Assembly (NCBI RefSeq): GCF_964204645.1 | Contig: NC_134034.1 | Location: 12,114,462-12,178,461 of the forward strand | DNA length: 64,000 bases | Direction: 5' to 3' | DNA from: Tubulanus polymorphus | Lineage: Eukaryota > Nemertea > Palaeonemertea > Tubulaniformes > Tubulanidae | In this document: positions 18,721 through 25,100 of the stretch, piece by piece | Position numbering within the stretch: position 1 is the stretch's first letter | Layout of the letters: every line of letters starts with the position of its first letter | Notes under the pieces: model-generated | Seen by the model: the letters and a program-made list of their open reading frames with translations, nothing else | What the model was told of the DNA's origin: nothing | Databases searched by the model: none | Program-made: the position numbers and the translations under genes

Positions 18721-19140
18721 TTATACTGAACTACAACAAGTCGTAATAGTCGTCTTCGCTTTATGTTTACTGTAACGGTGACTGTTTTGGTTCGTATCCT
18801 CGCCGCCAGATAGCTGTAGCGATTGGGCACCACCGTCTGCGTAGTGACCGCTTTTAGAATAGTTTCTACACAGAATCCAGTTAGCGCACGACCGCGACAA
18901 ACCACCACTTCCGCTCCCGCCTCCACCGCGCGAGCTAAAGTTCTTTTTACCGTTCAGAGGCTCTTTCTCGCGGTGTGTATGCGGCGCTGCGGTTGTTTGT
19001 AGATTAATATCCGGCGCGCTGGTCACTTGTGTAGTGCTGTAGGTCATGCCGTGTCGATTTGCCATAGCCGCAGCGGCCACGGGGTTCGAACCCCGCATTA
19101 ATTGGTGTTGACCCCATTTACGCTGTATTAACGATATTAC
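18721..19140 (-). CDS. Receptor alternative last exon K2 (long tail)
   Basis: 420 nt including TAA, phase 0 start, acceptor [27 protein letters not shown], then [12 protein letters not shown], a Gly/Ser-rich run, and a C-terminus TTCCSSV that fits a class I PDZ ligand (S-x-V). 139 residues. Confidence 0.87.
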   Translation of the reverse strand, partial: VISLIQRKWGQHQLMRGSNPVAAAAMANRHGMTYSTTQVTSAPDINLQTTAAPHTHREKEPLNGKKNFSSRGGGGSGSGGLSRSCANWILCRNYSKSGHYADGGAQSLQLSGGEDTNQNSHRYSKHKAKTTITTCCSSV

Positions 19141-22100
19141 CTGAAACGAGACACAAACCGGAAAATATTCATTATCTCAATATACGAAACCGGTGACACG
19201 TGTCACATGCTTAACGAAGTTGGAAAGGAATAAAACACACTGATTATAATGGGGCACCGGCACACGAGCGATCCCGTAAGATGGCGCAACTAAGACTAAC
19301 TCGATCAAAATTAGTTGATTTTCAATTAACTTTTTTCTCTATATCGGTATACCGATCCAAAAAGTAGGCATATATCGCGTTTAGATAAAATCAGATTAAT
19401 CTTGAATTTATACGTGACACAAATTCCGTAGCATGGACGTCGTTTTGTACACTAGCGAACCTGGCGGAACATGGTGGAACTGTACTTGTCATAGAAGTGT
19501 AGCCGGTACCCCATTGAGCTGGATAATATTTTGCGTATAACTTTCGTTAAGTTGTCAATGAATTCGATTCATTGGCCTAGCGATTAAATATGTTGATTTA
19601 TTCCTATCAATCCTCGACGTACCTTAACATAAAAAATACAACATAATTCTGAAGATGAGGGGGGTCGATAGTGGGGTATATACAATCGTAGGCTCTCATG
19701 CAATATATATGATATTTGCAATGGCATGCGGGTGCAAGGGATATAAGATAGATAGATGGATAAGCATAAAGTGGTAGGAAATTAAAAATGGCTTCTTTTA
19801 AAGAATGCGACTGCGCATGCGTAACGCATCCATCGACAGCTGGGTTTATCAATACATTTAGACTCGCGAGGGGGCGCTTAGTGGTTAATTAAGAAGTGCG
19901 CATGTGCAGAGTAGTGTTAAAAGCCTGTGCTGCGGTGAGACAACATCCCCGGCTGGGATTCGAACCTGAATCTCTTAGGCCTGAGATTAGACCACGTGTT
20001 CGAATGACGTATAACCGCATGGCCTACCCTAGCGAGGATTGCATGACCCGGCCGCGTGCGCTACGACGCAGTTCGGTTCGAATCCCGGAATACGGGGTTG
20101 ATGCCTGGTGTGAGTTAGTGTAACACTTTGTGTGACGTAGTAGCTTACATAATGTCCGGTGGATGTCAGTAGTCGCCATCGCTCACCAACAGCAGCAAAA
20201 TGCGTTCTCAAAAAAAACATGCCCCGATCCAAACGCGTGATGCCCAACAGTCCTGTGTATTCATCCTCAATAACTAATCCATTCGTTAATCCGTGTTAGA
20301 CAAATATAAGTATACATATATATATATATTCCGATATATATTTCTATATGTTTATATCGATTGCACTGATACATATAATGAAGCGGTTATTGATAGAACG
20401 AGTGTTTTTCTATGTACAGCCGTCAAAAATATATTTCAACATTTTTCGCAAAACATTTTCCTACACAGACAGACGTGGCTTATATTCAGAGAGGTTAAAG
20501 TTAGATCAGGGTTTCATTGTTGTATTTACAGGTAAACTGGGTTCAAGTCTTGTTGTTTTTTCGTAAGGCCTCGCTTTCCGGAGGTGCCTTCATACAGCAA
20601 ACATACAGATAGTAATATTTTTTTCTGTTTTAATTCATTCTTCTGAGATAATTCAAACTTGTTCGAAACAATGGTCGATGTCAAAATTCTGCTTGTTAGC
20701 TGTCAAAAAATTAATCCAATGTCCGCGATACTCCTCACTTTATCAAATGACACTTGATCGTATATGATTCATCAGCGGGCGCTTTGCGGCCATATTGAAA
20801 TTGAGATATTTACATATTCATTTCAAGTTCCGCCTAAAGCACCACGATCGATATTTACAAACATGCGCATGTTCGATCGAACGTGTACACGTGTGAATTT
20901 CCTTTCGTTCGTACACAGAACAAACTACAAAGCATTGTATATACATTATATACATTCAACGTTCGTCAATAGACTTCAGTCATAAGTCACTATATTGATC
21001 AGTCACAGCCTAATTCCAGCACATGTCGCATAACCTCATTCCTACACAAGAAAAGTGACGTCACTTCCTGTCAAAATGGCCGCCATGTTTATATAGAAAT
21101 TTTTTTTCTTAACTTTCATGTTTTGAAATAGAACTGACGCTAGGTGGCGCGCTAACACGGACTGACGTGGATTTTTGGTTTTCCGTTTTTCTTGCCGTTC
21201 AGACACGGTTTGATCGACGGTTCGTCCTGGTGACTCGTCGCCGTGTAAGAGTAATCCATGTTCGCCGTGGTCACCTGGGTCGCGAACGACATACCGCGTG
21301 ACCGCGTCTTGCCCTGCATTAGCTGGTGCTGCCCCCACTTGCGCTTGACGATAGCGATCACCTATAGCGAGAAACAAAATAAAACAAACGGTACGAAAAA
21401 GTGTAAACAAAAAAGATCGTCTGCTTCGGAGAGGGCGCGAACATAAAAGGTGAAGGTCATTCGGTAGCGTACGGCGGAGTTTTGCAATAAATACATCATT
21501 GATATTGCATATCACAGACACTGGGTTCGTAACGTTAGTCTTTCTAGAATCTACTTTGCCCAACCCCCACCCCAACTACTCGACTTGCTCTAGTGGCCAA
21601 AGGCGCAAGAACTTTCATGCCTTCGATCCTTTCTTACTTTCGAGACTATTTCGAGTTCGATATTCCGAACCGAACGTGCGTAAGGAGAATTCTTATACTG
21701 CGTACCTTTTTTGATTTCTGTTTGCGTATTTTAAAGATTTGAATTTTCAAAACAATGTGTCGCAATTCAAGAACGTTCGAACTTCTCAAACTGCCCAGCT
21801 CAACCAACATTAATTATTCTAGAAGGGTAGCGGGCAGGGATATATTTAACTTAAAACACTACTTCACAGACACAAGCATGCCACGCCTATATATACAAAC
21901 TACATCCAATAAAATAAAAGTGTCTATAAATTTCCTTAATTTGAATTTTGTGGGATTCGAACCCGACAGCTTGGCGTTAGTAATACGACGACATTCTCCA
22001 GAACTGGCCAATTCACCCGGTTCGAATCCCAGCAAGCAGTTTTAGATCACGATATCATTTAGCGCGCAGTGAAATTTAGAAGTCAGCCGACAAAATAGTT

Positions 22101-25100
22101 GTGTTACCATAACGACGTTAGCTTTAGAAATGTTGTTATCGTATGCGATATTCAATCTAGATTTTTCTAATTTGTATCCTTTTAATTAGAAATTCGCTCC
22201 TAAACCGATTTCAATAATCTCGTTTTAAGCTCCGTAAGATAAGTTGTTGATTGAAACTTTCCTTTCATCTCCTGATGAATTAACAGCGGATAATCTGAAG
22301 GATTCACTGAGTGAATACATCGAGAAGAAAATGTGACAATAAAAATCTAGATTTTTATTTCTGCAGGATTAATATCGAGGAATCGATGTTTTCAGGAAGA
22401 AAGTAAAAATTACGATCAGTTACTGACGACGACCTTCTCATTTCGAGGACTCCAACGATTTCTAGTAAAACCTACTCAATGACTTCATCGATTCAGTACA
22501 ATTATGATTAGTTACTAATGACGACTTTCTCATTCTCGATGATTTCAACGATTCAGTAAAATTATGATTAGTTACTAATGACGACTTTCTCATTCTCCAT
22601 GACATCAACAATTCAGTAAAATTATGATTAGTTACTAATGACGACTTTCTCATTCTCGATGACATCAACGATTCAGTAAAATTATGATTAGTTACTTATG
22701 ACGACCTTCTCATTCTCAATAACTTCAACGATTCAGTAAAATTATTATTAGTTACTAATGACGACTTTCTCCTTTTCGTGATTTGATGGTTATTTGTAGT
22801 GATTTGAATGACAGGTTGATTTACCATGACCACCAGTAAATGACAACCAGTAAATGACCACCAGTAAATGACAACCAGTAAATGACCACTAGTAAATGAG
22901 GTTGATAGATAATTTATGTATCTAACGCGCAAACCAATAACAACACCGATTTGGGTCAAGAAGATCGGGATACCTCGGTAGTTTCCGTAAGAATGTTGAG
23001 ATTGTATGATGCGATAGCCGATTGTGCGGATAGTCGGGATAATTCGGTATTTTCCGGAAAATGTCGATTAAATTCGTTTGAATTGAGTATCTCGTCGGTA
23101 CGATTCGGCAGATTCCGGAAATGTCCGATTCGGGTGAGGGAAGGTGTGTCTTTATGTATTTAAATATACCACTTACCTCTCCGTTACAAAAACAGAAAAT
23201 AACCGCGACGAACAAACCCTAAAAAGACAAATCAATTTATTCTCATTAGCAACATTTAACAAGTATTCCCGTTAATGACTGACGTAATAGGTGGATATAT
23301 GGGGCCATAAATATATAGCATATCTACAGAATAGCCTAGGGAATATCTATCATTACGTCACGATTCTATTGACGTCATAGGTTGATACAGAGGTAACCAT
23401 ATATCTTGTATAAGGGTCTTGTGGTGACGTCATAGGTGGATGTAACGGAGGCAGCCACATTTTGTATAAGGGCATGATGACGTCAATGTTGGATTTTATG
23501 GAGAAGGGTCTGCAGACGTCGTAGGTTGATACAGAGGTAACCATATATCTTGTTTAAGGGTCTGGTGACGTCATAGATGGATGTAACGGAGGCAGCCACA
23601 TTTTGTATAAGGGCATGGTGACGTCAATGTTGGATTTTATGGAGAAGGGTCTACAGACGTTGTAGGTTGATTCAGAGGTAAATTTGAATCTTGTTCAAGG
23701 GTCTTGTGCTGACGTCACAGTTGGAGAGTAACGGGGCAGCCGTACCTGGAACGACACTACGACAGCTGCGATGATCAGATAAATGGTCTGCGCTGCGGGT
23801 TCTGTTGGACGGAATGGTATGATCATGTACTGCAGGCCGAGTAGCGGTATCAGTATGATGATAGCACGCACTGCCTTCCTGCAATATAACAACACAACTA
23901 ACTAATTATAAACTGATTAAAAATCATGACAAGGAAATAATCGTAATTCACCGTGAATGAAGAGTTTCTGCCACAATCACGGAGCCGAAAAATCGAAATA
24001 GAGAAAAGTTAAAATATATTCATAAAAATCCGAATTTTTTTATTTCCTCCGAAAACCAATATCAGGGAAGGATAATGGTGATTACCATAAAATCCACCAT
24101 AAAAGTTGTATGACTTTGGTAATGAATAAATAGAATAGATTAAATTGATATAGTTTTTAGTGGTAATCTGAAAAACTACGAGTCCGCCTTTACACTACGA
24201 AATTCACGTTTCGCCTTGTGTCTTGATATCTACTCGCAGTTTAGTCTATAGACTGGCTACGAGCCTGAGTTCCCAATTCACTCGATACGTACTTAGTTTG
24301 GTTTGTGTCGGGCGAATTGACCGCACGCAGTTTGGTCACCAGAACTCGTACGATATTACATAGGAAGATTAGATTTAACTGCAATAGAAAAACGAAAAGG
24401 AAAACATTAATGATTTTTTTTTAAATAGAAATATTCATCTCAATCCGGGCTGCAGTTGCTGAAGTTGGTCGGAGTTAACCAGTGGATAGTTGACATAGTG
24501 ACGATTAAAACTATATCTTTACCATAGTAGTCATCGGCCAACATTTGAGCAACTGGCCCGCTGTCAATCGCGTGAGTCAAACTTACGATTAGCGAAGCGC
24601 AGATCGGACCAGCGTTTATCCAGTGCAAACTGCTGTCTGAAATCCAACACCTTATCGTAGCCTCTCCGTTCATCACTCCCCGAACTGACGTATAGATAGT
24701 CACTATCAACAGAGGTATTACTGCAAAAATAATAATTATTATATTAAGAATAATGATATTGATAATAATCTATTACTTAAAAGCGCTTTACATTGAAAAA
24801 ATGTCAAAGCTTTTTACAATATATATATATATAAATATATATAAATATATATATATATATATATATATATATATATATATATATATATATATATATATAT
24901 ATATATATATATATATATATATATATATATATATATATATATATATATATATATATATATATATATATATATATATATATATATATATATATATATATAT
25001 CTGCTGTTTTTTAAACAAGGCCTCAAGGATAAATGTTTTTGAACGAAAATGTTTTTAAAGCAAAAAACTCAAGTGCTAGGTTGGATTTTACCCTGGGCCC

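Follow-up and report, generated by a model that had tools for sequence, protein, structure and literature searches.

A calcitonin/DH31-type receptor gene of Tubulanus polymorphus with two homologous last exons, probably used as alternatives for helix 8 and the C-terminal tail

A calcitonin/CLR/DH31-type class B1 receptor gene lies on the minus strand of a 64,000-nucleotide stretch of the genome of the nemertean Tubulanus polymorphus (NC_134034.1, positions 12,114,462 to 12,178,461 of the forward strand). The whole stretch is called the window below, and positions are counted from its first letter. The last exon of this gene, encoding helix 8 and the C-terminal tail, is present in two homologous copies, named K1 and K2. 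As judged from the sequence, we consider it probable that this exon was duplicated in tandem in ancient times and that K1 and K2 are used as alternative last exons which swap helix 8 and the tail; the gene probably makes two receptors that are identical except for helix 8 and the inner tail. Three exons are central to the argument, the first of which (exon J) encodes the seventh of the transmembrane helices (TM1 to TM7):

Positions 23177..23218, minus strand: TM7 exon (exon J), 42 nucleotides, phase-0 end at NGE, donor gtaagt.
Positions 21152..21361, minus strand: K1, first candidate alternative last exon, helix 8 and short tail, phase 0, 69 residues, stop codon TAG at 21154-21152.
Positions 18721..19140, minus strand: K2, second candidate alternative last exon, helix 8 and long tail, phase 0, 139 residues ending in CCSSV, stop codon TAA at 18723-18721.

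Exon J is flanked by tctttttag upstream and gtaagtgg downstream; K1 starts at 21361 directly after gtttctcgctatag and K2 at 19140 directly after gtgtctcgtttcag. The layout of alternative last exons, with one strong donor after TM7, two acceptors of the same phase and a separate stop codon in each exon, is thus present at the sequence level. An initial annotation of this stretch had ended exon J in phase 0 at NGE, which agrees with the coordinates 23218-23177 and the donor; its junctions 23177-21361 and 23177-19140 are correct as coordinates, and its tails of 69 and 139 residues, each with its own stop, were found again. The helix-8 block common to both exons reads VI(A/S)(I/L)(V/I)(K/Q)RKWGQHQLM(Q/R)G. 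The second motif listed in that annotation, M(S/T)(F/Y)(A/S)TQVT, is real, but K1 has MSFATQVT and K2 MTYSTTQVT, so the common block is better written GM(S/T)(F/Y)(A/S)..TQVT with a one-residue gap. The other shared features on that list were also real, although it lacked a third common block, LNGKKN, and the insertion of 8 residues that K2 has soon after GQHQLM. Compared with K1, K2 also carries a 72-residue extension beyond LNGKKN.

The exon duplication that had been proposed was upheld by shuffling, since none of 5000 shuffles matched the K1-K2 score, either for the whole or for the part beyond helix 8. The BLOSUM62 local score was 109, spanning residues 1-59 of the 69 in K1 (shuffle mean 27.0, maximum 58), and without the helix-8 block it was still 52 (mean 25.8, maximum 48). 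The aligner set one 8-residue gap and omitted the extra one-residue gap, and the distal identity may therefore be undercounted. In the 59 aligned codons, 25 residues are identical, only 9 of them with the same codon. The nonsynonymous (pN) and synonymous (pS) differences per site were 0.435 and 0.838 overall; for the first 17 codons, which cover helix 8, they were 0.136 and 1.08, the latter indicating saturated synonymous sites. In codon bootstraps, pN reached or exceeded pS in 0/1000 replicates for all codons, 0/1000 for helix 8 and 45/1000 for the remainder. Saturated synonymous sites together with a conserved helix 8 suggest that the duplication is old and that helix 8 was kept as protein in both copies. 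The tandem duplication of the helix-8/tail exon is, on this comparison, real and old, and at least helix 8 is constrained at the protein level in both K1 and K2.

The weaker distal constraint, with its 45 of 1000 bootstraps, would also fit a case in which only one exon is used and the other is a relic, either a duplicate in decay or an exon left behind by an old second copy of the gene. However, an old relic should show stops and frame shifts, whereas K1 and K2 both keep an open frame and an ag border despite the saturated synonymous sites. Nor was a second close copy of the receptor found in the genome (267.8 Mb in 77 contigs). A query of the receptor core with K1 gave 26 matches among those listed, for which the best candidates were scored; these were 45-98% identical within the gene itself and 24-50% identical elsewhere. 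Because the core matches outside the gene reach at most 50% identity among these candidates, a second gene copy was rejected as the source of K2. We therefore regard the relic explanation as quite unlikely. When K1 alone was used as query against the whole genome, at E values up to 10, only two matches were obtained, K1 and K2 themselves. The query with the core attached also picked up the helix-8 region of further class B receptors, for example at C11:12137659 (44% identity).

As a paralogue control, eight further class B loci were chosen from the matches of the receptor searches in this genome. Six of the eight (L003, L005, L007, L008, L009 and L010) appear to have an intron at the position that follows exon J here. 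Left out of the control were L004 and L006, in which the frame continues past TM7 with no intron seen, and L028 and L029, for which the pattern used gave no TM7 exon. Downstream phase-0 exons starting with a helix-8-like motif were then scanned for, which gave 1, 2, 2, 1, 2 and 1 raw matches in the six loci (in the order above) and three in the receptor gene here, the third of which looks like chance (polypyrimidine 0.20). By eye, one match each in L003, L005, L008, L009 and L010 was a plausible tail, and none in L007. Two mutually similar matches occurred elsewhere only as overlapping readings of one L007 stretch. No second related tail exon was found in the six paralogues within the 3.5-9.9 kb scanned in each; as 13.2 kb were covered here, a second tail lying further away may have escaped notice in these shorter stretches. 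On contigs C4, C6, C9 and others, the genome also holds many matches to the 7tm_2 domain that each lie within one open frame some 700-950 codons long; several of these form clusters.

The receptor itself was assembled from two hormone-domain exons and seven exons covering TM1 to TM7, joined in one frame at ag/gt borders of matching phase; no first coding exon was found by exon joining within the window. The exons upstream of exon J, all on the minus strand, include those carrying the third intracellular loop (ICL3) and the third extracellular loop (ECL3):

Positions 37927..38040, minus strand: hormone-binding domain exon, extracellular; ag/gt borders, phase matching the next exon, HRM match on the joined protein.
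Positions 32587..32693, minus strand: exon closing the hormone-binding domain, ending in CIDLLSIR; from exon joining, HRM match on the joined protein.
Positions 30246..30337, minus strand: TM1 exon, from exon joining.
Positions 29574..29700, minus strand: TM2 exon, from exon joining.
Positions 27819..27972, minus strand: TM3 exon, from in-frame joining; 7tm_2 E 1.1e-12 on its open reading frame (ORF) alone.
Positions 24587..24720, minus strand: exon from TM4 to the start of TM5; of the donors tried (24610, 24587, 24583), 24587 alone keeps the frame.
Positions 24293..24378, minus strand: TM5/ICL3 exon, from exon joining.
Positions 23746..23878, minus strand: TM6/ECL3 exon, from exon joining.

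An exon at about 28542-28354, initially taken as the first extracellular loop, was dropped because the TM2 exon (29574) and the TM3 exon (27972) join directly in phase. The joined exons matched HRM (E 2.8e-16) and 7tm_2 (E 4.4e-58), both above cut-off, which places the protein in class B1; a Cadherin_C_2 match in the tail stayed below its cut-off in the domain search of the joined protein. The nearest sequences to the receptor core in PDB were CLR (3.6e-77) and the calcitonin receptor (6.4e-71 to 9.3e-70), followed by CRF receptor 2 (2.8e-51). By this ranking above other class B1 receptors, which draws on PDB sequences only and not on a tree with invertebrate receptors, the gene belongs to the calcitonin/CLR/DH31 receptor group. 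The human CLR and calcitonin receptor are thus closest to the core, whereas the K1 tail without the TM7 exon matched no receptor in PDB at E up to 10, and a likeness of the tail to human CLR beyond helix 8 is unsupported. With the TM7 exon attached, the best match was CLR for K1 (3.2e-6) and PTH1R for K2 (1.1e-4), with CLR a close second (1.5e-4). The frame of exon J also continues into the following intron for 84 codons (23176-22922, minus strand), so retention of this intron would yield a third, unrelated tail.

If K1 and K2 are alternative last exons, the single donor after TM7 would be joined to K1, the transcript of which would then be cut and polyadenylated ahead of K2; alternatively, K1 would be skipped and the same donor joined to K2. 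Either way, the receptor body and the hormone site would stay as they are while helix 8 and the tail are swapped; as a likely effect, the two forms would differ in arrestin binding, internalisation and scaffold anchoring. The initial annotation had also named G-protein choice among the properties that class B receptor tails control. That both exons are used, that polyadenylation is switched between them and that the forms differ in function is what we infer from features of the sequence. In an acceptor weight matrix, a small one built from nine other acceptors of the same gene, the K2 acceptor ranked first among the 204 AG sites between 23160 and 18760, and that of K1 eleventh. Poly(A) hexamers occur after K1 (ATTAAA at 20634, AATAAA at 19602) and after K2 (ATTAAA at 17341, AATAAA at 16834), and one of them was taken as a candidate signal:

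Positions 20629..20634, minus strand: candidate poly(A) signal ATTAAA for K1, with a GT-rich stretch behind it; 168 of 500 simulated stretches were at least as good.

A codon-usage score was derived from 14 single-exon receptor ORFs with 11,805 codons in total. In bits per codon, it amounted to 0.11 for K1, 0.04 for the K2 core and 0.08 for the K2 extension; intron windows, which overlap one another, scored as high in 0/733 cases for K1 and 1/731 for the K2 extension.

The two tails also differ in features that bear on function. K1 contains three matches to the arrestin code, the first and last of them overlapping. The K2 extension is rich in Gly and Ser and contains Cys. A class I PDZ ligand motif has the form [ST]-X-[VIL] at the C-terminus; the terminal SSV of K2 (CCSSV) fits it, and K1 (VSPC) ends in SPC. 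From the arrestin-code matches and the C-terminal residues, the short form may be open to arrestin, and PDZ proteins or palmitate may serve to anchor the long one.

Several of these results weigh against two functional alternative ends. The K1 acceptor is only eleventh of 204. Hexamer counts after K1 and K2 were equalled or exceeded in 430 and 380 of 500 first-order simulations, and the GT-richness behind the hexamers was at chance as well (168/500 and 370/500). The codon-usage score is weak: the K2 core is not outstanding (equalled by 47/734 intron windows), and the true frame of K1 (0.11) is surpassed by one of its reverse frames (0.15). The arrestin-code matches of K1 are just mildly enriched (3 against a shuffle mean of 0.6, with as many in 85/2000 shuffles) and those of K2 are at chance (2 against a mean of 2.8, with as many in 1458/2000), while the PDZ assignment depends on three residues. 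The tails themselves give no pointer to the calcitonin group, because the best match of K2 is PTH1R.

Poly(A) motifs of K1 not above chance would suit a regulatory exon, by which K1 is spliced on to K2, its premature stop leads to destruction of the message and the K2 form is the sole protein. K1 does lie upstream of K2 and carry a stop, and GT sites are present within it, such as GCG/GTATGT in phase 1 and CAG/GTGACC in phase 0. However, a poison exon has no need of a helix 8 conserved relative to K2 (pN 0.136 with pS saturated), and distal K1 also still resembles K2; this explanation is thus considered unlikely. The chance frequency of arrestin-code matches in K2 agrees with a further possibility, that both exons are used and their tails are functionally equal, as neutral isoforms or splicing noise. 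The long retention of two constrained helix-8 copies speaks against such equality, which we hold to be very improbable, and argues for a use of both. Alternative use of K1 and K2, each with a helix 8 and tail of its own, remains the reading that we prefer.

Receptors with exchangeable C-termini were compared with this gene; two of them lie outside class B, ETHR being a class A receptor and OAMB a class A amine receptor. The comparison draws on the accessible parts of the papers cited, and on the main text for the mussel receptor. It has been reported that 21 of 49 Drosophila neuropeptide G protein-coupled receptor genes have multiple C-termini, 14 of them through alternative splicing, and Dh31-R, PDF-R and Dh44-R2 are named with two splicing-derived C-tails (PMC9624432). 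Dh31-R is of the same receptor type, and both its tails have conserved arrestin-site matches; homologous exons or the inclusion of helix 8 are not stated for them in that part of the paper (PMC9624432). The initial annotation had known of no such arrangement in calcitonin/DH31-type receptors. Alternative C-tails as such are already published for Drosophila Dh31-R (PMC9624432). ETHR-A and ETHR-B likewise arise from alternative terminal exons and differ in sensitivity, but much more than helix 8 and the tail is exchanged, the whole variants being only 43.4% identical (PMC8291126); the alternative exons of ETHR were compared in a tree, and some groups have single exons (PMC8291126). Drosophila OAMB-K3 and OAMB-AS also differ by their last exon and in signalling, but the change starts in the third intracellular loop (PMC2650798). 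In Rhodnius, the calcitonin-type diuretic hormone receptor has the C-tail splice variants CT/DH-R1-B and -C, whose tails differ by 2 residues through an alternate splice site, with no duplicated exon described in the accessible text (PMC3843727). Further receptors with alternative C-termini are named in a review of peptide receptors in worms and flies, none of calcitonin type in the part available (PMC3414713). The DH31/calcitonin receptors of lophotrochozoans fall into two groups (PMC8557429), and the words exon, splice and isoform are absent from the main text of a paper on mussel calcitonin receptors (PMC7200681). Among the matches listed in a search of the open-access literature by titles and abstract openings, none reported a calcitonin/DH31 receptor with a duplicated last exon. 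The homologous last-exon pair in a calcitonin-type receptor is a known kind of arrangement in a new place.

The tails and helix 8 of class B receptors have been studied mostly by truncation and chimeras. A natural pair would swap exactly helix 8 and the tail on a constant receptor body, and has apparently been kept for long. The K1/K2 pair would allow an in vivo test of whether signalling, internalisation and anchoring are set by helix 8 and the tail alone for a calcitonin-type hormone. A rather unlikely extension is that calcitonin/DH31 receptors have carried the pair since ancient times as a conserved switch, perhaps one that the two-tailed Drosophila Dh31-R shares. For hundreds of millions of years, one hormone receptor would then have been made in two forms that differ in helix 8, a short one with an arrestin code and a long one anchored to a scaffold.

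Repeats were also seen around these exons. The K2 coding part contains a perfect palindrome, GGGGTTCGAACCCC, at the edge of the 8-residue insertion (window 19081-19094), which we take to resemble a tRNA T arm. T-arm-like words (GGTTCGAAYCCC, at most 1 mismatch) are over-represented in the window, with 12 found against 0.47 expected, the K2 palindrome counting twice:

Positions 3977, 4451, 7695, 19081-19094, 19955, 20075, 21952, 22019, 37932, 51746 and 63113: T-arm-like words from a word search with at most 1 mismatch.

Two facing pairs of them (19955/20075 and 21952/22019) lie in the introns flanking K1. A tRNA search found no tRNA gene, and in a DNA search for a repeat origin of the K2 insertion the K2 stretch matched only itself, a weak result as very common words were skipped. 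The TM7-K1 intron holds a tandem array of period 60 (window 22415-22837), and in the TM6-TM7 intron TGACGTCA-like words recur in direct repeats at a spacing of 141-144 bases (window 23365-23741). On the plus strand at 14794-16344, a reading of ORFs by eye as fibronectin-type-II-like was not confirmed; EGF domains were found in three of the four ORFs tested, which appear to form a separate gene convergent with the receptor gene.

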